From: Methanospirillum hungatei
GTDB taxonomy: Archaea; Halobacteriota; Methanomicrobia; Methanomicrobiales; Methanospirillaceae
Direction of reading: 5' to 3'
Assembly (NCBI RefSeq): GCF_019263745.1
Contig: NZ_CP077107.1
Span: 2,852,001-2,916,000, forward strand
Length of the DNA: 64,000 bases
Shown: in pieces, positions 24,613 to 38,480 of the stretch
Layout of the letters: each line of letters starts with the position of its first letter
Position numbering within the stretch: the first letter of the stretch is position 1
The notes under the pieces: generated by a model
What the model was told of the DNA's origin: nothing
Databases searched by the model: none
Seen by the model: the letters and a program-made list of their open reading frames with translations, nothing else
Position numbers and translations under genes: made by a program

Positions 24613-25677
24613 GTGATTTTCATATCCAGGATCCAGAATGATAACTCTCTAAACCAAACATGTATTCTCGGAAATGATGTCCTGTTGTATGAATCTAAAA
24701 TATGTGAGATCCTGACACATATCAGAAAACCCGGAGACTTCAGAACTCCTCCAAAAATCGCTATAATAAGTCCAACTTCATACTCCAGAACCGTTGTAGC
24801 AGATAGTATTGCCAGGGAAATTTCTGTATTAGTTAAGAGGAAAAATTTTTCTGGAGAACCATTTGGAAAAAGAGAGTTGGAGAATTTATTTGAAGAACAT
24901 GCGGTTTATGTCTGCGAAGAATGTCAATATCTTTATGAAAGAAGGCCACATGGTTTTGATCTTCTGAGGTTATTTCTATCTTCTCTTGTAACGAATTCAC
25001 GTCAGGTTATTACTACATGGAACCAGTATTCATGGAATTTCCTGAGTGGATTTCTTCACATAGAACGCTGGTTTCCGATAATTATTACTCTTCCTCTCTT
25101 ATCCTTACCTGAATTAAAAAAATATCTCATTGCTGATGGGAAAGAAAACCTTCATTTTATTATTGATACTGAACTGGATAATTCATTGGAATTAGTAAGG
25201 AAAGATTATGATATTACCATTTCTTCATTAAATCTTTCGTTTTCTATTCCATATCTGACCGTTCAACGTCGTTATGCATCATATATTCCTTTACTCGCAG
25301 ATAAACAGGCTTTGCCAGAAGAACTGATCTTTCGGGAAATATATCGACTATCTTCAGGTGAACCAGGGATCGCTCTGAAAATATTTCATGATGCGATAGT
25401 GGAAGATGAAATCAGAGTAACACACCTTCCAAAGCCGCTTTCTGTCCCTGAATTATATGCTATTGATATCTTTGTGTTAACCCTTATTCTCATGTATGAA
25501 TTACCTGTATATTCAAGGCTAAATGAGTCCATTCAGGATAAAGCAATGCTTAATTCTTCATTATATCGACTGGTATCATCAGGGCTGGTAATCAGAAATG
25601 AGGAAGTATGGTGCATCAGTTTAGAGGGATTTGCACCGGTTGTGGATTACTTAAAACAACGGAGGATGATTTGGTAA
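24613..25677 (+). CDS. Degenerate AAA/STAND-like ATPase-type protein, unknown function
   Basis: A 354-residue protein that I do not recognise by family. Its order of elements suggests a P-loop NTPase remnant. AIISPTSYSRTVVADSIAREI sits where a Walker A strand-loop-helix should be but lacks GKT. HAVYVCEECQYLY resembles Walker B, and SRQVITTWNQYSW a sensor strand. The C-terminal 90 residues look like a winged helix (SSLYRLVSSGLVIRN). The start is uncertain: GTG 24613 lies within GGGTGAT, which may instead be a ribosome binding site. The stop overlaps the MscS start as TAATG, so the two proteins are made together and probably work together. AT-rich compared with the neighbouring housekeeping genes. 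Confidence 0.6.
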   Translation: MIFISRIQNDNSLNQTCILGNDVLLYESKICEILTHIRKPGDFRTPPKIAIISPTSYSRTVVADSIAREISVLVKRKNFSGEPFGKRELENLFEEHAVYVCEECQYLYERRPHGFDLLRLFLSSLVTNSRQVITTWNQYSWNFLSGFLHIERWFPIIITLPLLSLPELKKYLIADGKENLHFIIDTELDNSLELVRKDYDITISSLNLSFSIPYLTVQRRYASYIPLLADKQALPEELIFREIYRLSSGEPGIALKIFHDAIVEDEIRVTHLPKPLSVPELYAIDIFVLTLILMYELPVYSRLNESIQDKAMLNSSLYRLVSSGLVIRNEEVWCISLEGFAPVVDYLKQRRMIW

Positions 25678-26552
25678 TGAATGAAAGCGTTGCGTTGGAT
25701 ATGGGCTCACCTGTTGCCCCTCTTTCCGGAGACTATTCTTTCCTTATTCTATATATTGTCCTGATTTATCTTTTAACATTTATTCTTAACTGGATTATTG
25801 GTCATTTTCTCCAACAATTTTCCGAGATGTTTTCTAAAGATCGTATCACCATACAAATGCTGATACCGCTAGTAAAAATTGCTTTTTATTGTATTGCTAC
25901 CTGGTTTGCCATCACTGCAATTCTCGCTCCTTCCTATACTGAGATGGTTGCCTTTTTTGGATTATTTGGTGCTGCATTGGGTTTTGGGCTGAAGGATCTT
26001 CTGGCCAACATTATCGGAGGTATTGTGATAATTTTTGAAAAACCATATCAGATTGGGGATAAAGTAGCGTTTGGAGCGTATTATGGTGAAGTGACAGATA
26101 TTGGTCTTCGAACAACAAGAATGGTTACTCCGTCTGACGATGTTGTGACCATACCAAATTACCAGATATTTTCCGGAACTGTTTCTAGTGGAAATTTTGG
26201 TTCCACTGCAATGATGGTTGTAACAGATCTCTTCATTGATACGGATTCAGATTATTCCCTGGCTCAAACTCTTGTCAGAGAAACAATTGCAAGTTCACCA
26301 TATGTAATTATTAGTGATGATTTTCCTTACACAGTTCTTATTCACTCATTTCCATTTTATAATCGAATAAGGGCCAAAGCATATGTGACAGATCATAGGT
26401 ATGAGTTTGAGTATCAATCTGATCTCCATCAACGAGCCTGGGATGCGATGAGAAATGAGAATATTCGTTCTCCACCATACCCGGGTGTCCTAATGGAAAA
26501 ACAACAAGACTCTAACCAGTATTTAATCACTGAAAAGTTAGAGGGGAGATAA
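25677..26552 (+). CDS. MscS-family mechanosensitive channel
   Basis: A 291-residue small-conductance channel with N-terminal membrane helices (about residues 15-115), the pore helix FGLFGAALGFGLKDLLANIIGGIVI, the beta domain (IGDKVAFGAYYGEVTDIGLRTTRM) and a mixed C-terminal domain ending near residue 260. It releases solutes on hypo-osmotic shock. ATG 25677 is chosen for its GGAGGATGAT site and its one-base overlap with the preceding stop. A run of T8 follows the stop (26555-26562). The neighbours Kup and abl point to osmotic balance. Confidence 0.85.
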   Translation: MNESVALDMGSPVAPLSGDYSFLILYIVLIYLLTFILNWIIGHFLQQFSEMFSKDRITIQMLIPLVKIAFYCIATWFAITAILAPSYTEMVAFFGLFGAALGFGLKDLLANIIGGIVIIFEKPYQIGDKVAFGAYYGEVTDIGLRTTRMVTPSDDVVTIPNYQIFSGTVSSGNFGSTAMMVVTDLFIDTDSDYSLAQTLVRETIASSPYVIISDDFPYTVLIHSFPFYNRIRAKAYVTDHRYEFEYQSDLHQRAWDAMRNENIRSPPYPGVLMEKQQDSNQYLITEKLEGR

Positions 26553-26686: not shown

Positions 26687-28498
26687 ATGTTTTCTACCCT
26701 GGTCGATTCCCGGGTTCTTAAATCATTAGGGCTTGTATTTGGAGACATCGGGACAAGTCCGATTTATACAATTGGCATCATACTTCTTGTTCTCGTCCCG
26801 GATGAGGGAAATATTTTTGGAATTATCTCTTTAATTTTCTGGAGCCTTTTTCTAATAATCACGGTCCAGTATGTCTGGTTTGCCATGAATGTTGGATCAA
26901 AGGGTGAAGGAGGTACTATTGTATTAAAAGAAATTCTGACTGGATTATTAAAGGACAGCCCATTGGTTCCGTTTATATCACTCCTGGCGATAGTCGGTGT
27001 TTGTCTTTTCATGGGTGACGGGGTGATCACACCTGCTATCAGTATTTTATCTGCTGTTGAAGGAATTAGACTCGTTCCAGGGCTTGAAGATATAAGTGGT
27101 ACTATTTTGCTTCTTATTGCAGCTTCAATTGCAATCTGTTTATTTGCATTCCAGAGAAGGGGAACAGATAAGATTTCATGGGCATTTGGTCCGGTGATGG
27201 CAATATGGTTCCTCTGTCTCTCAATTACAGGGCTAATCAGTCTGGTATCAACACCGCACATTCTGTTTGCGTTAAGCCCTCATTTTGCATTTGGGTTTTT
27301 ACTGGATAACGGCCTTGCTTCACTCATCGTGTTATCAGCTCTTGTATTATGTGTCACTGGAGGTGAAGCATTGTATGCTGATATGGGTCACCTTGGTCGG
27401 GAACCTATTGTAAAAGGGTGGTATTGTGTGTTTCCTGCTCTAATGCTTAGTTATCTGGGTCAGGGGGCATTTGTACTAGAACATGGTTCTACCGGAACGG
27501 TCCTCTTCTCCATGGTTTCCTCCATAGTTGGACCATTATACATTCCGTTTCTGGTCATGAGTATCTGTGCAACGGTTATAGCGTCTCAGGCTATGATCAG
27601 CGGTATGTTTTCTATTGTTTATCAGGCAATGACAACACGGATTATACCAAAAATGAAGATAGATTACACATCTTCATCACTTCGGTCACAGATCTATATT
27701 GACAGCATAAACTGGATCCTTTTATTAGCAGTGTTGATCGTTATGGCTGCTTTTCAGTCATCAGAACATCTTGGGGCAGCATATGGACTTGCAGTTGCCG
27801 GAGATATGTCAATAACTGCTTTCATGCTTCTTGTCATATTTTCCATCAAAAGGGATGCAGGAAAGGTTGGAGTCATGTGTTTATTACTTGGAATTAACCT
27901 GACCTTCTTCATGGCCTGTTTAACAAAACTCCCACATGGAGCTTACTGGTCTTTTCTTCTGGCCCTGATACCTTTTATCATAATCATGATATTTATACAG
28001 GGGCAGCAGAAACTTCGTTCAGTATTTAAACCCATCCCCTATGAAGAGTTTATCGATAAATATCATCAGTTATACAAGGGAGTATGCAAAATTTCAGGTG
28101 CTGCACTGTATTTTACCTCAGATATTCGATCAGTCTCTCCCTATATTGGACAAATTTTTTTCCAAAATAACATCATTTACCAACAAAACATTCTGGTTTC
28201 TGTCAGAGTCAAAGGATATCCTTTTGGAGTTACATCTGATTATCAGGAAGGACTGGCAGAAGGGCTTTCTGCATTTATCATTGAAGCTGGGTATATGGAA
28301 ATTGTAGATATCGAAGGTCTTCTCCGTGAGAGAGGGATTTATGAAAAAACGATCTTTTATGGCATTGAGAATATCATAAGTGACCGGATGATCTGGAACC
28401 TCTTTGGTCTGATGAAAAAAGCTTCTCCACCATTTGTTCAGTTTTATTCATTGCCGGCTGAGAAAATTCACGGAGTAGTTACCAGGTTTGTAATGTAA
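26687..28498 (+). CDS. kup: Kup/HAK-type potassium uptake transporter
   Basis: The 603-residue product has 12 membrane helices and a cytoplasmic C-terminal tail (from about 450), with the family signatures LGLVFGDIGTSPIYT at the N-terminus and TGGEALYADMGHLGR near residue 228. It imports K+ with protons. Potassium accumulation is the first response to salt in methanogens, which suits the adjoining MscS and compatible-solute genes. The start ATG 26687 has AAAGG directly next to it, closer than ideal, so a slightly later start is possible. Confidence 0.92.
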   Translation: MFSTLVDSRVLKSLGLVFGDIGTSPIYTIGIILLVLVPDEGNIFGIISLIFWSLFLIITVQYVWFAMNVGSKGEGGTIVLKEILTGLLKDSPLVPFISLLAIVGVCLFMGDGVITPAISILSAVEGIRLVPGLEDISGTILLLIAASIAICLFAFQRRGTDKISWAFGPVMAIWFLCLSITGLISLVSTPHILFALSPHFAFGFLLDNGLASLIVLSALVLCVTGGEALYADMGHLGREPIVKGWYCVFPALMLSYLGQGAFVLEHGSTGTVLFSMVSSIVGPLYIPFLVMSICATVIASQAMISGMFSIVYQAMTTRIIPKMKIDYTSSSLRSQIYIDSINWILLLAVLIVMAAFQSSEHLGAAYGLAVAGDMSITAFMLLVIFSIKRDAGKVGVMCLLLGINLTFFMACLTKLPHGAYWSFLLALIPFIIIMIFIQGQQKLRSVFKPIPYEEFIDKYHQLYKGVCKISGAALYFTSDIRSVSPYIGQIFFQNNIIYQQNILVSVRVKGYPFGVTSDYQEGLAEGLSAFIIEAGYMEIVDIEGLLRERGIYEKTIFYGIENIISDRMIWNLFGLMKKASPPFVQFYSLPAEKIHGVVTRFVM

Positions 28499-28522: not shown

Positions 28523-29362
28523 TCAAGTCAGACTCTTATACCAGATATTCATACTCTCAAATTTTCCACAAATATTTGTATTTTTAATGAGCGTTCCACC
28601 ATGTTGATACCCGAAACCGGAAAATAAACGGTTGATTTGGAGTGGTTCTGCCCTGCAAATCGTAAATGCTGTTTTAACATGATTTTTCTTCATGTGTTTC
28701 TCCATAAATGAAAGAAGTATTTTTGAGATTCCATATCCCCGATATTTTGGATTTACGGCTAAATCACTCATTTCAACAGCAGAAGCATGTGCATCAATTT
28801 CACAAGAGCCTGCACCTATAACTTCATTTGATATTTCAGCAACAAAAAAAGGTACACCAGAACTCATGATCTTTTTCAGATAATAAGGTTCACATATCGG
28901 AAATGGATATGTCTCAAAAACCTTTTTGTATAGGGCACATAGCTCTGAAATATCAGATGTGTCTGCTTTTCGAATCCTTATTTCTTGCGAATAATTTTTT
29001 TGAACTGGTGGGAGCAGGTTATTCTGGCAGGTATGAATGTTTCTTTGGATTTTATTAAACCCATCTTCTTCAGCTCTCCGGATATTAAAAAACCTGGATA
29101 AAAAAAGAGCATCTTCTATACCCTGGTAATAACCCGGAATACGCGCTTCAATCCGTGTATCCGGGGTTTTAAAATCCCTCTCTAATGATCTGGGAACCTT
29201 AAGGATAATCTTTTCATAAGAGTAAACAAGTTGTAAATAATTGATTCTATGCAGGATGAGTTCAATATCGTCCGGATGAACCTGGATAAGGTAAATCCTG
29301 TTATTATAATATCCATGTTGAATCAGGCTTTTCCCAATGGTTACTAAAAAATCAGTCTCCAT
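28523..29362 (-). CDS. ablB: Beta-lysine N6-acetyltransferase
   Basis: A 279-residue protein with a C-terminal GNAT domain (about residues 135-279; the acetyl-CoA loop is seen in [20 protein letters not shown]). It acetylates the epsilon-amino group of beta-lysine to give the osmolyte N6-acetyl-beta-lysine. ATG 29362 is supported by GGAGGG just upstream and overlaps the end of ablA by 11 bases. A U-tract (minus strand, 28505-28511) follows the gene, shared head-on with the end of kup. Confidence 0.9.
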
Positions 29363-30665
29363 CTGCCCTCCTAGAGATTCGGTCAAGATCTGCTGGGAGG
29401 ATTGTAATATCATTTTCATAATCTGATAATAATGCCTCAATCCCCTGAGCACGTTTTCCTGCACTTTCCTCATCAATTGAATGTTGGAGTACACATGCCT
29501 CACACCGAAGATCACAAGTTACTCCCTCATATGAAGATGGTTCCTGATAAGTAGTGAACATCCCTTCATAATTACGGAGAACAACCTTGTTGGAAGACCA
29601 CGATACGAGATAATAGGGCATCACTGGGATTTTTCCACCGCCTCCTGGTGCATCAATTACATACGTAGGAACTGCAAGACCTGAAGTATGGCCAATAAGG
29701 CTTTCAATAATTTCGATTCCTTTCCCTACTGGTGTTCTGAAATGAGCAAGGCCCTCTGCAAGATCGCATTGGAACAAGTAATATGGCCTGACACGGTTTT
29801 TTACAAGTTCTTGAACCAGTTTTTTCATGATGACCGGACAGTCATTTACCCCTGCTAATAGAACAGACTGGTTACCAAGAGGAATTCCTGCATCCGCAAG
29901 TTTTGCAAGAGCGTTACGTGAATCATCCGTGAATTCTTTTGGATGGTTAAAATGAGTATTTAGCCAGAGGGGGTGATATTTTTTGAGGATTGAAACAAGA
30001 TTATCAGTTATCCGGAAAGGAAGAACAACAGGTACCCGGGATCCGATTCTGATAATCTCAATATGAGGTATTTTTCGTAACCTGCTTAGTATTCTGTCCA
30101 GTTGATGGTCTGACAGCATGAGAGGATCCCCTCCTGATAACAGGACATCTCGGATTTCGGGATGATTTTCGATGTATGAATAGGCTGCTTCCAGTTCCTC
30201 TTCCAATGGAATTGAGGATACCTGACCTACCTTTCTCTTTCGTGTACAATGTCTGCAGTACATTGCACAGGTGTTGCTTATCAGAAACAGGATTCTGTCC
30301 GGATACCTGTGTGTGATCAATGGGCATGGACTATCTGCGTCTTCTCCCAGTGGATCGTGAATATCATAGTCCTCTATGATTAATTCTCCGACAGATGGAA
30401 CCGCCTGTTTAAAAATGGGATCATGATATGGATCATGGGTATCGATCAAAGACAGGTAATAAGGAGTAATAGACATAGGAAAGATGTCACATGTCTTCTG
30501 TATATCTTTTCGTTCCGTATCAGACAATGGTATGTCAAGCATGCGTTCTAGAGTTTTAATATCAGTAATGCTATGCCCAACTTGCCATTTCCAGTCTTTC
30601 CACCTTTGTTTATTATCTTCGGCAGCTTGTTCGATAGATGGAGGGATTGTTTTTATATGAGTCAT
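29352..30665 (-). CDS. ablA: Lysine 2,3-aminomutase
   Basis: The 437-residue radical SAM/PLP enzyme converts L-lysine to L-beta-lysine. It has the cluster motif C133-x3-C137-x2-C140 (CAMYCRHC), SGGDP for SAM binding, the PLP lysine K345 in GGGGKIP, and both aspartates that hold the substrate's epsilon-amino group in characterised enzymes (D301 in FQCDL; D338 in VIDAP). It is paired with ablB, the standard osmolyte operon of methanogens. No ribosome binding site precedes the ATG, so the transcript may be leaderless. Confidence 0.95.
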
Positions 30666-30749: not shown

Positions 30750-31913
30750 TTAGTAGGTTGCCACTTCACGATAAGCAGCAGGATCATATTCAAACAGCCA
30801 CTCCCGGATAGGGCCTGTTCCTGGAGTAAACGGCTCATAATCATCAAACCATCGTGCCTGTGGATTTGAATGAGATATCATGAATTTGTCATAATCTTCT
30901 GGATCGGCTGCCTGATGGTACCTCATAAAGATGTTATGGTTATTCATCCCGACAACCTCTACCTTCCCGGTGCTATGAGACATAATAAATCTAGCCCGCT
31001 TTGCAAGACCTGAACATTGTTTAAATGCAGTATGCATAATCTGGTATGACTTTTCTACTGGAACTGTATAGATCTGGTTTCCTATTGTCGGCCTGCACTG
31101 GAAGACATAATATGGCGAAATTCCCTGGAATGATAATTTTTTAAATAATTGGGCCATAATGGCTGGATTATTATTCACTCCATCGATAACCGGAGTCTGG
31201 TTTACAATAATGGCACCTGCCTGCTGAAGCATCCCGATTGCCTGTATTGATTCGGGGGATATCTCTGCCGGATGGTTGAAATGAGCCATGATGTATATTT
31301 TTTTGTTTTCTTTGGATGACTCATTGATCAGAGAGATGAAATCCGGATCCCCGGTAATCCTTCCAGGATTATATGCCAGCATTTTTGTTCCTATCCGGAT
31401 GATTCCAACATGATCGATAGACTTCAACTCATTGATTACTTTTCGGAGGTGTGGTGTTGAAAGGATGAGCGGATCACCACCTGATAACAGTACATCGGTA
31501 ACTTCAGTATGATCTCTGATGTATCCTAGTGCCGGAGTATAATCTCTGACAGTCTGCCTTTGACAGTCCATGAAAAGACGTTTTCTGAAGCAAAAACGAC
31601 AAATGCCACCGCACTCATCTGAAAGAAGGAACAGAGATGTCTGGGGATATTTATGCTGCAATCCATGTTGGACTGTGTAATTTTGTTCCTGGGATGGATC
31701 ACGGCTGCCGATCATAGATAGTTCACCAGGATCTGGGAAAATGATTCTTTTTAGTGGATCGTTAGGATTATTCCAATCGATAAGAGAGAGATAATGACGT
31801 GATGCACGGAATGGGAATCGTTCTGTCACCTGTAAAAGGCTCTCTTGTTCGCTTTTTTTCAGAGACTGAAAGTATGGGATCCTGGTAATGTCTGTAATAT
31901 ATGTTCCTTTCAT
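30750..31913 (-). CDS. Radical SAM aminomutase, lysine-2,3-aminomutase paralogue with altered substrate residues
   Basis: A 387-residue KamA-family protein with the cluster motif C101-x3-C105-x2-C108 (CGGICRFC), SGGDP and the PLP lysine K317 (STGKVEV). The aspartate of the QCD motif is arginine here (R274 in FQCRP), and the second substrate aspartate is replaced in FIMSHST (M311, with a one-residue deletion). Lysine is therefore an unlikely substrate; glutamate 2,3-aminomutases also replace these aspartates, so an acidic amino acid such as glutamate is plausible. ATG 31913 is fixed by AGGAGGTG eight bases upstream. The leader (31920-32045) is long and contains stem-loops. Confidence 0.85.
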   Translation of the reverse strand: MKGTYITDITRIPYFQSLKKSEQESLLQVTERFPFRASRHYLSLIDWNNPNDPLKRIIFPDPGELSMIGSRDPSQEQNYTVQHGLQHKYPQTSLFLLSDECGGICRFCFRKRLFMDCQRQTVRDYTPALGYIRDHTEVTDVLLSGGDPLILSTPHLRKVINELKSIDHVGIIRIGTKMLAYNPGRITGDPDFISLINESSKENKKIYIMAHFNHPAEISPESIQAIGMLQQAGAIIVNQTPVIDGVNNNPAIMAQLFKKLSFQGISPYYVFQCRPTIGNQIYTVPVEKSYQIMHTAFKQCSGLAKRARFIMSHSTGKVEVVGMNNHNIFMRYHQAADPEDYDKFMISHSNPQARWFDDYEPFTPGTGPIREWLFEYDPAAYREVATY

Positions 31914-32048
31914 CGTGTTCACCTCCTGGTGGTTAACAATAAACCCCTGGGTGTAGGAGGGAATCCCTCGGGGTATAGAGTATCCGGGCAATGGTCAATA
32001 AGATTGGTATTCTGAAAGTCCCGGTTAAGGAATAATTGGGGATCCTCA

Positions 32049-32060
32049 TATTTATAGTTT
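32049..32060 (-). promoter_or_regulatory. TATA box of the aminomutase paralogue
   Basis: On the minus strand ACTATAAATATG is a near-ideal archaeal TATA box. Transcription would start near 32027, leaving a leader of about 115 bases before ATG 31913. That leader includes nested complementary segments (GAGGG/CCCTC within CCCC/GGGG, 31945-31974). Confidence 0.45.
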
Positions 32061-32063
32061 CTT

Positions 32064-32090
32064 AGATCTGATTACTATTAGTAATGATCT
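32064..32090. promoter_or_regulatory. Inverted repeat, possible operator between divergent genes
   Basis: The core TTACTA-T-TAGTAA (32072-32084) is a perfect 13-base dyad, and outer AGATC/GATCT arms extend it imperfectly to 27 bases. It lies just upstream of the aminomutase TATA box and about 70 bases before the HTH-PAS gene, a natural place for that regulator to bind. Binding is inference. Confidence 0.45.
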
Positions 32091-32159: not shown

Positions 32160-34031
32160 TTGTCTACAGGATCATATGAAGAACAGGTCCACTCTCTGTT
32201 ATGCTCAAATAGAGAAGGGTTGACAATCGAGGAAGTATCACGGTTATTGCATATAACCCGGACAACTGCGGCCCGGTATCTTGAGTCTCTTTTCCACGCT
32301 GGAAGGGCTGAGCGACGGTCTCTTGGACCTGCAAAAATATATCGTGCATCGTTCCGGGTTTCGAGCTCAGAAATTCTCGCTGTCCTTGATGAAGGAGTTC
32401 TCATCATTAGTCATGATGGAACAATCACTGATGTAAATCCAGCATTTTGTGAAATGCTTTTTACTTCTTGTGATACGTTGAAAGGCAGATCAATCAGATA
32501 CTCTCCATTGGCTGCTATCTTTTCTGAGGAAATTCAAAAAGTACTCCTGGAACCTCCTTTACAGGCTATTGAGGGCATTTTACATCTTTCAGGACAAATG
32601 AGGGAAAAATTCCTGCGTTATCGTATATTTGCAATTCAATTGGTGGGGGATGAACGTGGATCAGTGATGATCCTTCAGGATCAAACTGAAATCCAATCAA
32701 GTAAAGAGCAGGCAAAGAGTCTTGCATCCGAGTATGAACATCAGATCTCTCTTATTCACTCTGATTTGACGAACAATCTGGAAAAAGCAAAAAGCACAGT
32801 TCGGGAGGTATCAAGTCGTGAACGAGCAATCCGTGATCTCCTGCAGAATGTTCGCGCTGTGATTCTGAAGGTAAACTCTGCCGGAAAAGTTGTTTTTTGT
32901 AATCATTATGCATCAGAGATTGTTCATCTCCATGATGGGGAGCAAGACCATCCGGCTCTATTACATACTTTGTTTCCTCATCTGGATGAACAGGGGATAG
33001 TAATTACTGATAAAATTGACCTTGTCCGAAATGGTATTTCTGATTTTTCAAGTTGGGATTCATCACTCATCATAGAAAATCAGATCTCCTCACAGATTTA
33101 TTCCTGGAATCTGATACGACTCCGGAAAGGGAAGAATGGTGCTTCAATGATTCTCGCCGGATTTGATATAACAGATCTAATCACCCGTGAACGGCAGGTT
33201 GTCCAGTCGCAAAAGAGAATGGAGTGGATTTTAGATCATCTTCCTGATCCAACATTTGCCGTTGATAAGAATAAACTGATAATACTTTGGAATAAGCAAC
33301 TCGAGAATATGGCCGGTCTTCAATCAGAGGAGACAATTGGAAAATCTATTGATCTTTTTGTACCAGCAATATATGGATATAGTCGCCCTGTCCTTGCAGA
33401 TCTGATATTTAACAGGTATGATCCGTCAATAAATGCATTTTTTAAAAACATTGTCCAGGAAGGGGAAGCTCTTACTGCAGAGACCATCGCATACAGGCAG
33501 GATGGGAGTAAGCGGATTTACTGGGTCAAGGTTACACCATACTACACAGAGACAGGTGAACTCTCTGGAGCTATCCAGTCACTTCGTGATATTACCTCTT
33601 TCAGGGAGAATGAAGCAAAAATCAGGGATGAAGAGGAATTACTCCGAGGTATTGCTGAGCATGTTCTGGATGATATTATGGTCATCAACCGGGCGGGTAT
33701 GATATTGTATGCAAATCCATCCCTGGGAAGGTTAATTGGGACCAGTCCTGAGAATCTTATCGGGGTGCACATAAGCGAGGCCCAAGAAATCCGTAAGATT
33801 TTTCCTACCTGTGATCGATTTAAGTCTGTTTTTTTGTCTGGAATACCTCTACATGAACTTTTCACTATTACTCATGATGGGGTAGAGATGCTCATGGATG
33901 CTATGTTCATTCCAGAGAAAGATAACGCAGGCCTCATCTCTGCAATTCTCATCGTGCTTCGAAATGTTACATCACTTCGGGATGAAATATACAGTCTGCA
34001 ACATCGTATAACTGGATTTATCGAATCATAA
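32160..34031 (+). CDS. HTH-PAS sensory regulator (wHTH plus four PAS-like domains)
   Basis: A 623-residue protein. An N-terminal winged helix (residues about 5-65, ITRTTAARYLESL as recognition region) is followed by a PAS domain (about 70-175), a coiled coil (175-225) and three more PAS-like domains (about 225-350, 355-480, 490-600). It has no kinase, receiver or output enzyme, so it should act as a one-component transcription regulator. The start is TTG 32160, supported by GGAG seven bases upstream. It shares its architecture and helix sequence with the protein at 47127-48515. T8 follows the stop. Ligand unknown. Confidence 0.8.
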   Translation: MSTGSYEEQVHSLLCSNREGLTIEEVSRLLHITRTTAARYLESLFHAGRAERRSLGPAKIYRASFRVSSSEILAVLDEGVLIISHDGTITDVNPAFCEMLFTSCDTLKGRSIRYSPLAAIFSEEIQKVLLEPPLQAIEGILHLSGQMREKFLRYRIFAIQLVGDERGSVMILQDQTEIQSSKEQAKSLASEYEHQISLIHSDLTNNLEKAKSTVREVSSRERAIRDLLQNVRAVILKVNSAGKVVFCNHYASEIVHLHDGEQDHPALLHTLFPHLDEQGIVITDKIDLVRNGISDFSSWDSSLIIENQISSQIYSWNLIRLRKGKNGASMILAGFDITDLITRERQVVQSQKRMEWILDHLPDPTFAVDKNKLIILWNKQLENMAGLQSEETIGKSIDLFVPAIYGYSRPVLADLIFNRYDPSINAFFKNIVQEGEALTAETIAYRQDGSKRIYWVKVTPYYTETGELSGAIQSLRDITSFRENEAKIRDEEELLRGIAEHVLDDIMVINRAGMILYANPSLGRLIGTSPENLIGVHISEAQEIRKIFPTCDRFKSVFLSGIPLHELFTITHDGVEMLMDAMFIPEKDNAGLISAILIVLRNVTSLRDEIYSLQHRITGFIES

Positions 34032-36754: not shown

Positions 36755-38480
36755 CCCACATTCCGCAGTTTGTTATGTGAAATAATATTTTTCATGATGC
36801 GTCCCAAGCAATCGAATAATTTTCCGAATCGTTTTATCCAAATTGAGAACTTTGGTGACGATTCTGCCTTCAATCCGAAGTGAGAGTTCTCTAACTCTTC
36901 GAAATAAAAAGAAAATCCAGCGTAATGTTGGTTTTTGAGTTGGTTTACCGGTTTGATTCGGCACTGTTTCATTAGTCTCTTTGAGACTTTTCCGTAACTT
37001 GTACTCTGTTATGGCGTATACATATAGACAAAGAACCATGATCATTGCCAAAGCCTGAATTCTCCCTGTATTTTTGAGAAATACGTCAGACACCCGGAAC
37101 GTTTTATCCTTCAGAAACCTGAATCCTTTTTCGACCTGTGATTGACCTTTATAATAGTTTAACGTGGTTTCAGGATCCAAATCCAGATCATTTGTCGCAA
37201 TAATAAATCTGCCAAGAATTGACTTTTCTTTTTCTAATTCAGTAAAATTTAGTGAGATATCAGCCTCAATAACATATTTCAGTATGAGCGTTTCATCTTT
37301 TCCAGGCCGTCCCCGTTTCTTCTCTAATCGCTCGTGAACTTGTTTTATAGAACAAGTATCAAAAATTACCCACGGGTGTTTCGAAACCCATTCGGCAGCA
37401 GCACTTCTGGCATCGGGTTCACAGGCAAAACGTTTACAGGCCAGGTGTTTTAGGGATTTTTGAGCTCGTATGAGTTCTTTCTCTACTTTTTTATCAAAAT
37501 CCTTCTCTTTTTTTCTTTGTTGTTCACTTGAATGAAAGACAATCCAAGTTTGTCTGACTCCGGCGTAATTGGATGATGAGCAATAGTATGAATAACGACT
37601 GTCTTCGCAGGAAGTGAAAGATTCAGAAGTTTTTCGAAGAGACTCAGCTTCAGATATTGTTAAGGGAACACGTGATATCCAGAAGGTATGAAAGCCGAGC
37701 GTCTGAAGATTTTCTTCAGTATAGAATGCTGAATCTGCTACATGAATGACTTTTTCTGCAACATTGAGGTTCTTTTTAACTTTCGTTATGATCTCAAGGA
37801 GTGCTTTTTTATCAGACTCATTCCCTGAGAATGTCTGAAGAAGAAGAGGAATTCCATGTTGATTGGTTGCCATTCCAAGTGCAAATCGTTTAAGATCCCA
37901 GCGACCATCCTTTGGATGACCATGCGTTATCTCAATTTCTTCAGTATTGCTGTCTGAGTCATAGTTTCCATGGACACTAAAGTTGGTAGTATCGTTATTT
38001 ACTAAATTGATTGCGAATTGGTCTCTTTCAAGGCATTCCGATACAATATGATTGAACATTTCGGTTTCTCCAAACGCATGAATTGCATCTAAAGTCCGAC
38101 CCAGAAGATCATCATTCAATTGTGTTGGAGTGATCTCCTTGTTAAAAAGACGAGTGAGGGAGATATCGGTAAAAAATGCAGGAAAAAGATAAAGCCGCCG
38201 TTCAATATATCCTAGGCCATTTATGACCATTGCTTTAACAATATCGCCATGTGTCAAGTGATGTGGACCTGTTTTTGGAATGAAGTTATCAATTATCTGA
38301 CCAATATTCAGTTCATCATAACTACCAGCAACAAGTCCAAGATGACCGATTGTCCTATCTGAATCTGATACGAAGATATCATCGAAATCCATCGTTTATC
38401 CATAGAGATCGATCAGGAAGTATTTATAGTTAAGCTTTTATGATTAATTGAATTTTATAAAAGGATATGCGGAATGTGGG
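36755..38480 (-). mobile_element. Complete IS1634-family-like insertion sequence, 1726 bp
   Basis: Perfect 13-base terminal inverted repeats, CCCACATTCCGCA (36755-36767) and TGCGGAATGTGGG (38468-38480), bracket one transposase gene and are flanked by AATAT duplications. The internal layout is compact: the transposase stop is only five bases from the left repeat, and its start 75 bases from the right one. All parts are intact, so the element may be active. It sits between trpS and the pheST promoter region. The family assignment rests on the transposase type, size, and duplication length. Confidence 0.85.
36773..38392 (-). CDS. IS1634/IS4-type DDE transposase
   Basis: A full-length 539-residue transposase. 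Likely catalytic residues are D134 (NNDTTNFSVHG), D220 (HVADSAFY) and E421 (YKGQSQVEKGFRFLKD, the Y-(2)-R-(3)-E-(6)-K-like region of the IS4 group). The N-terminal 100 residues resemble the DUF4277 domain of IS1634 members. No frameshift or stop interrupts it. It inserts the element by cut-and-paste, making short AT-rich duplications. Confidence 0.9.
   Translation of the reverse strand: MDFDDIFVSDSDRTIGHLGLVAGSYDELNIGQIIDNFIPKTGPHHLTHGDIVKAMVINGLGYIERRLYLFPAFFTDISLTRLFNKEITPTQLNDDLLGRTLDAIHAFGETEMFNHIVSECLERDQFAINLVNNDTTNFSVHGNYDSDSNTEEIEITHGHPKDGRWDLKRFALGMATNQHGIPLLLQTFSGNESDKKALLEIITKVKKNLNVAEKVIHVADSAFYTEENLQTLGFHTFWISRVPLTISEAESLRKTSESFTSCEDSRYSYYCSSSNYAGVRQTWIVFHSSEQQRKKEKDFDKKVEKELIRAQKSLKHLACKRFACEPDARSAAAEWVSKHPWVIFDTCSIKQVHERLEKKRGRPGKDETLILKYVIEADISLNFTELEKEKSILGRFIIATNDLDLDPETTLNYYKGQSQVEKGFRFLKDKTFRVSDVFLKNTGRIQALAMIMVLCLYVYAITEYKLRKSLKETNETVPNQTGKPTQKPTLRWIFFLFRRVRELSLRIEGRIVTKVLNLDKTIRKIIRLLGTHHEKYYFT

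Follow-up and report, generated by a model that had tools for sequence, protein, structure and literature searches.

The KamA family of radical S-adenosylmethionine (SAM) and pyridoxal 5'-phosphate (PLP) proteins is well known and includes lysine 2,3-aminomutase (AblA or KamA; TIGR03820; solved structure 2a5h), glutamate 2,3-aminomutase (Eam; TIGR04368), the arginine 2,3-aminomutase BlsG (TIGR04468), EpmB (TIGR03821), and AblA_like_2 (TIGR03822). The roles of individual residues in lysine 2,3-aminomutase were reportedly established by the work on 2a5h, and Ruzicka and Frey are said to have described in 2007 the replacement of its lysine-binding aspartates by lysine and asparagine in the glutamate enzyme. 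Here, we analyzed a stretch of 64,000 nucleotides of Methanospirillum hungatei (contig NZ_CP077107.1, positions 2,852,001 to 2,916,000), referred to below as the window. The genome is a single 3.39-Mb contig with two KamA homologs, ablA and an adjoining gene, KAM2, which encodes a protein of 387 amino acids (30750..31913, minus strand, ATG at 31913 and stop at 30750); the plus-strand translation of 30750-31913 contains 17 stops, and the real open reading frame (ORF) lies on the minus strand. For the half of the family to which KAM2 belongs, no tested function was found as far as our searches reached.

Comparison with the NCBIfam models showed that KAM2 passed the broad KamA subfamily model TIGR00238 (209.1 bits; cut-off 199.2), which specifies no substrate, and failed those for lysine 2,3-aminomutase (213 bits; cut-off 525), glutamate 2,3-aminomutase (206 bits; cut-off 650), arginine 2,3-aminomutase (189 bits; cut-off 600), and EpmB (180 bits; cut-off 369). 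The score for AblA_like_2 was also under the cut-off. All 65 members of the alignment A2 matched the same six families, matches being counted irrespective of cut-offs. The AlphaFold2 model of KAM2 calculated from this alignment had a mean predicted local distance difference test (pLDDT) value of 91.2. Its best structural match was 2a5h, with a Z score of 38.3 over 330 residues, followed by a match of 15.3 (Foldseek, VIA-align); 2a5h was also the sole match in the sequence search of solved structures. Thus, KAM2 has a common fold with AblA, and it shares the iron-sulfur, SAM, and PLP residues; unlike AblA, it has no LAM_C match in Pfam. EpmB and AblA_like_2 are short proteins, as is KAM2, and presumably also lack LAM_C. 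In agreement with the original prediction, which was made from the sequence alone, the [4Fe-4S] and PLP motifs are retained: KAM2 has the cysteine motif C101/C105/C108 with the arginine R110 after it, the GGD motif, and K317 as the PLP lysine. C101, C105, C108, R110, and K317 were invariant in 81 of 81 proteins from the collected loci. A radical SAM, PLP-dependent 2,3-aminomutase chemistry is well supported for KAM2 by these motifs and by the modeled fold.

A maximum-likelihood tree of 64 proteins divided the KamA family deeply into two sides with a support of 100/99; the bootstrap was not fully settled, and EpmB, L166, L164, and the Rhodococcus sequence formed long branches (loci are numbered with L and genomes with G). 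Side A (23 proteins) comprised AblA, the glutamate enzyme, the BlsG arginine aminomutases, EpmB, AblA_like_2, and others. Side B (41 proteins) comprised 28 KAM2 proteins, a second archaeal clade of nine, two rhizobial sequences, and one each from Paenibacillus and Rhodococcus; no characterized member of side B was found in the searches made. The phylogenetic check proposed together with the original prediction placed KAM2 apart from EpmB, on the opposite side of the 100/99 split. A grouping with glutamate aminomutases did not appear on the tree, where the glutamate enzyme is represented by one sequence, L181, and IdnL4, a glutamate aminomutase implicated genetically, is not among the 64 proteins. 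L181, the only protein of the set to pass as a glutamate 2,3-aminomutase (681 bits against the TIGR04368 cut-off of 650), fell with AblA across the split. However, the approximately unbiased test did not reject a tree in which the glutamate enzyme joins side B (p 0.176), and a sister relation between them may therefore still hold.

A further difference from AblA lies in the pocket. The lysine-binding aspartates D301 and D338 were confirmed in the neighboring ablA, and both are lost in KAM2. The predicted exchange of the first one for arginine was found in every alignment, with R274 opposite D301. For the second one, M311 had been named as the counterpart; the absence of an acid stands, but the L-INS-i alignment of the 64 proteins pairs D338 with S312. 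Since a gap adjoins this site, the exact partner (S312 or M311) is uncertain, and M311 is off by one position at most. In the same alignment, R274 was present in 41/41 side-B proteins (the window, 27 of the loci in the 81-protein count, and 13 sequences from other searches) and in 0/23 side-A proteins. It was also invariant in all 81 locus proteins, a count that takes in the window, a pair of near copies, and L115 with its internal stop, and that comes from a partly selected set, because one of the patterns used for collecting the loci contains the arginine. Judged from these alignments, the conservation of R274 is far from chance. S74, K88, F109, H313 (40/41), and W355 are likewise invariant or nearly invariant on side B.

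A comparison with the other families demonstrated that both aspartates are also replaced in glutamate 2,3-aminomutase, as had been claimed: L181, identified by its curated score, has lysine and asparagine at these positions. The first site is therefore basic in both proteins (lysine in Eam, arginine in KAM2), whereas the second is asparagine in Eam and serine in KAM2. In BlsG the second aspartate is lost too (threonine), but the first is retained, as it is in EpmB and AblA_like_2, and all three lie on the other side of the tree. By its pocket residues, KAM2 is not a lysine enzyme, which agrees with the original prediction, and the pocket seems to be built for an acidic amino acid. An acidic side chain would be the simplest use of an invariant arginine placed where the lysine enzymes have aspartate and the glutamate enzyme has lysine, and for this reason glutamate would be the likeliest substrate.

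We tentatively favor the reading that KAM2 acts as a glutamate 2,3-aminomutase and supplies beta-glutamate for osmoadaptation. In such a reaction, L-glutamate would be converted to beta-glutamate (3-aminoglutarate), an anionic compatible solute balancing K+. A 5'-deoxyadenosyl radical formed at the C101/C105/C108 cluster would take a beta hydrogen from the glutamate-PLP aldimine, with PLP on K317, and the amino group would move via the azacyclopropyl step that lysine 2,3-aminomutase uses. R110 would hold the alpha-carboxylate. The side-chain carboxylate may be held by R274, S312, and neighboring basic residues, contacts that are suggested by the alignment and that would fall where the two aspartates of AblA grip the lysine ammonium. 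The order from which the window comes also includes Methanogenium cariaci and M. anulus. Beta-glutamate was reported in both as an osmolyte (PMC6958431). In 2005, the methanogen enzymes making beta-glutamate were described as not all identified (PMC1224877), and no such enzyme was named in the titles or abstract openings of the later literature found.

The neighborhood of KAM2 is osmotic, in support of the original prediction. Directly downstream, with 84 bases between the KAM2 stop and its start codon, lies ablA (29352..30665, minus strand; TIGR03820, 707 bits, cut-off 525), followed by ablB, encoding beta-lysine N-acetyltransferase (28523..29515, minus strand; TIGR03827, 268 bits, cut-off 205); these are the coordinates of the longest ORF, and the true ablB start is probably internal to it. 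The genes for a Kup-type K+ transporter (26687..28498; PF02705 at 26714-28033, G000:C1:2878714-2880033) and an MscS-type mechanosensitive channel (25608..26552; PF00924 at 25995-26183, G000:C1:2877995-2878183) come next, on the plus strand. Similar linkages were observed in other genomes. Of 13 genomes measured, six had KAM2 at most 1.3 kb from ablA. In 7 of 37 genomes, where 0.63 was expected, MscS was no farther than 6 kb from KAM2; these genomes fall in 4 of 18 genera (binomial 2e-4, genera being taken as independent). This link is not carried by ablAB alone, because in G008, G036, and G052 ablA is absent or on another contig. Kup was present in 13 of the 37 genomes, and in five of these (G000, G007, G008, G010, and G022) it lies no more than 6 kb from KAM2. 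The fetched regions also contained a ProV-type betaine transporter ATPase (L032) and cation:proton antiporters (L036, L037, L040, and L053; one cluster, of which the L036 member was tested). A gene for a GltP-like symporter, which matches the glutamate/aspartate GltP model best but scores under that cut-off, shares 17 bases with KAM2 in L122; in L145, it stands two genes apart from KAM2. In bacteria, Na+ riboswitches have been reported with ablA and eam (PMC9337991), and in Methanoperedens a single operon comprises kamA, ablB, and a gene for MscS (PMC11337218); the osmotic setting is thus coherent.

Elsewhere, in many genomes that mostly belong to other lineages, KAM2 is instead preceded by a set of GTPase, DUF2073-like, and zinc-ribbon genes (named by eye), a setting that speaks for neither an osmotic nor another role. 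In the methanogen loci L045, L049, and L057-L070, this set comes with CBS-domain genes, also recognized by eye. No conserved partner gene was detected in the bacterial loci across 80 and 19 loci (18 of the 19 were read; the L234 gene was missed), as is expected if one enzyme finishes the product. A DUF389-type membrane protein repeatedly adjoins KAM2 (L086, L088, L096, and L035; assigned by TIGR00341 in L035 and by eye or cluster in the others), a possible transporter link.

KAM2 is not an oddity of a single genome: it spans nearly the whole order of these methanogens, with 42 of 61 genomes carrying it, and is found in many bacterial phyla besides. The GTDB contig scan gave at least 504 confirmed relatives, of which the best 80 were kept. 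Among those listed were Methanomicrobiales, ANME-2c and other Methanosarcinales, Nitrospina, KSB1, Calditrichota, Desulfobacterales, Planctomycetes, Kosmotogaceae, and Thermoleophilia. In a phylum sample, 75 of 294 genomes had a side-B match at E <= 1e-100, and the matches fell into two score groups of about 573-662 and 407-456 bits; the members of the lower group placed on the tree belonged to the second archaeal clade. Within the order, KAM2 occurred in 26 of 27 genomes with ablA and in 16 of 34 without it (Fisher p 2e-5, uncorrected for kinship), and it was missing in 11 of 45 genomes that were at least 95% complete. Methanospirillum stamsii (L073) carries KAM2; genome G002 has neither KAM2 nor ablA. 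Searches of phage and viral collections returned distant relatives only.

Several observations weigh against the production of beta-glutamate by KAM2. Side-B enzymes encoded in quite different gene clusters likewise have R274 without exception, so this residue could have a structural role. In four of the seven genomes, ablAB confounds the MscS link, and the occurrence in bacteria is patchy (4/40 and 16/297 genomes in two phylum samples). Early nuclear magnetic resonance (NMR) work dealt with one methanogen, which we take to belong to a different order. That work excluded this route in the organism studied (PMC1224877). In Methanoculleus bourgensis BA1 at high ammonium, unbiased NMR found glycine betaine and acetyl-beta-lysine to be dominant, and beta-glutamate is not named in the available part of that study (PMC12776343); the relatives listed in the GTDB scan include KAM2 from Methanoculleus other than BA1. 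Because of these two NMR studies, we hold the favored reading somewhat below an even chance. As for the original interpretation as a whole, the pocket, the arginine, the separation from EpmB, and the osmotic setting stood, the grouping with the glutamate enzyme did not, and beta-glutamate is a product that we infer.

Another reading, which we consider somewhat unlikely, is that KAM2 is a 2,3-aminomutase whose substrate is some other free amino acid, such as 2-aminoadipate, glutamine, ornithine, or alanine, and whose product is another beta-amino acid serving as a solute or a precursor. It is consistent with a pocket unlike those of AblA, the curated glutamate enzyme (lysine/asparagine), and the arginine aminomutase (aspartate/threonine), and with the presence of side-B relatives in natural-product-like clusters. 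However, an invariant arginine at the side-chain end disfavors cationic substrates, and glutamate is the abundant carboxylate amino acid in these cells. That the KAM fold serves another function in KAM2, either a different radical chemistry or a sensor or regulatory role of a paralog, would agree with the lack of a characterized side-B member in our searches, but it appears improbable given the invariant cofactor residues. We regard as quite improbable the modification of a macromolecule or a role in translation, like that of EpmB on EF-P, with no osmolyte involved. EpmB belongs to the family, is comparable in length to KAM2, and presumably has no LAM_C domain; in several genomes, moreover, KAM2 follows the conserved GTPase/DUF2073-like/zinc-ribbon set and not osmotic genes; against this stand the 100/99 split, the score far under the EpmB cut-off, the dispensability of KAM2 evident from its absence in nearly complete genomes, and its frequent links to ablAB, MscS, and Kup. 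Finally, a second lysine 2,3-aminomutase feeding AblB under other conditions is highly improbable: KAM2 is directly upstream of ablA-ablB in six genomes, but both lysine-binding aspartates are lost, the first to an invariant arginine, and 16 of the 42 genomes with KAM2 have no ablA match at all.

Upstream of KAM2, its own ribosome binding site and promoter and a divergent regulator were seen as predicted, the promoter itself being a prediction. The Shine-Dalgarno sequence GGAGGTG (31920..31926, minus strand) is located 6 bases before the ATG, and a TATA-like box, CTATAAA (32051..32057, minus strand), a predicted promoter element, 138-144 bases before it. An alignment of nine upstream regions revealed an A+T-rich box at the matching place in related loci. 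The inverted repeat ATTACTAATAGTAAT (32071..32085, strand not assigned), upstream of the TATA-like box, is a candidate operator and was conserved only loosely in the same alignment. The divergent gene (32160..34031, plus strand) encodes a protein with an N-terminal TrmB/IclR-like helix-turn-helix (HTH) and PAS domains, which may control KAM2; it adjoins KAM2 in eight loci, including L032, L053, and L054, where ablAB does not adjoin. The 5' leader (31914-32041) contains a CCGGG...CCCGG inverted repeat that is kept in most of five close relatives. Its folding energy in close relatives was not unusual (z -0.39), and we therefore claim no structure for it. Riboswitches were sought with Rfam and rejected: a search for a Na+ or other riboswitch in 13 bacterial loci returned tRNAs only, and the sole match for the window leader was a weak one to a snoRNA, under the gathering score (E 0.4). 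Farther away, a 539-amino-acid ORF (36773-38392, minus strand) reads by eye like an IS4/IS1634-type transposase.

Other members of side B occur in different surroundings. The second archaeal clade (L200-L208 and L212-L216) has the motifs FQCRPVKRV and MSHxTGK, and in L214 and L213 genes for an AsnC/Lrp-like regulator and an acyl-CoA-dehydrogenase-like protein (named by eye) stand beside the aminomutase; this clade is possibly a catabolic beta-amino acid enzyme. On the Rhodococcus plasmid pDK3 (L156, 1-9248), a side-B aminomutase that keeps the arginine is accompanied by genes for a carrier protein, an AMP-binding protein, an N-hydroxylase, a cupin, and a tRNA-ligase-like protein, which looks like an unstudied natural-product cluster. 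The rhizobial plasmids L154 and L157 carry a side-B aminomutase beside ATP-grasp-type ligase genes, with a gamma-glutamyltransferase gene too in L157.

A broader proposal, which we consider rather unlikely, is that the whole of side B, marked by the invariant arginine, forms a second lineage of 2,3-aminomutases selective for acidic substrates. The KAM2 branch would then provide a missing beta-glutamate source for Methanomicrobiales, ANME archaea, Nitrospina, and further bacteria, many of them marine. This lineage might likewise be sought in ammonia-oxidizing archaea; beta-glutamate was reported at 730 mM in Nitrosopumilus maritimus (PMC8269262). If KAM2 makes beta-glutamate, this widely spread gene would become a marker for an osmolyte of marine archaea and deep waters. 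Even if the substrate differs, a first function would be assigned to half of a well-known enzyme family, and the automatic lysine 2,3-aminomutase labels on such relatives, as in plasmid records, would be shown to be wrong.
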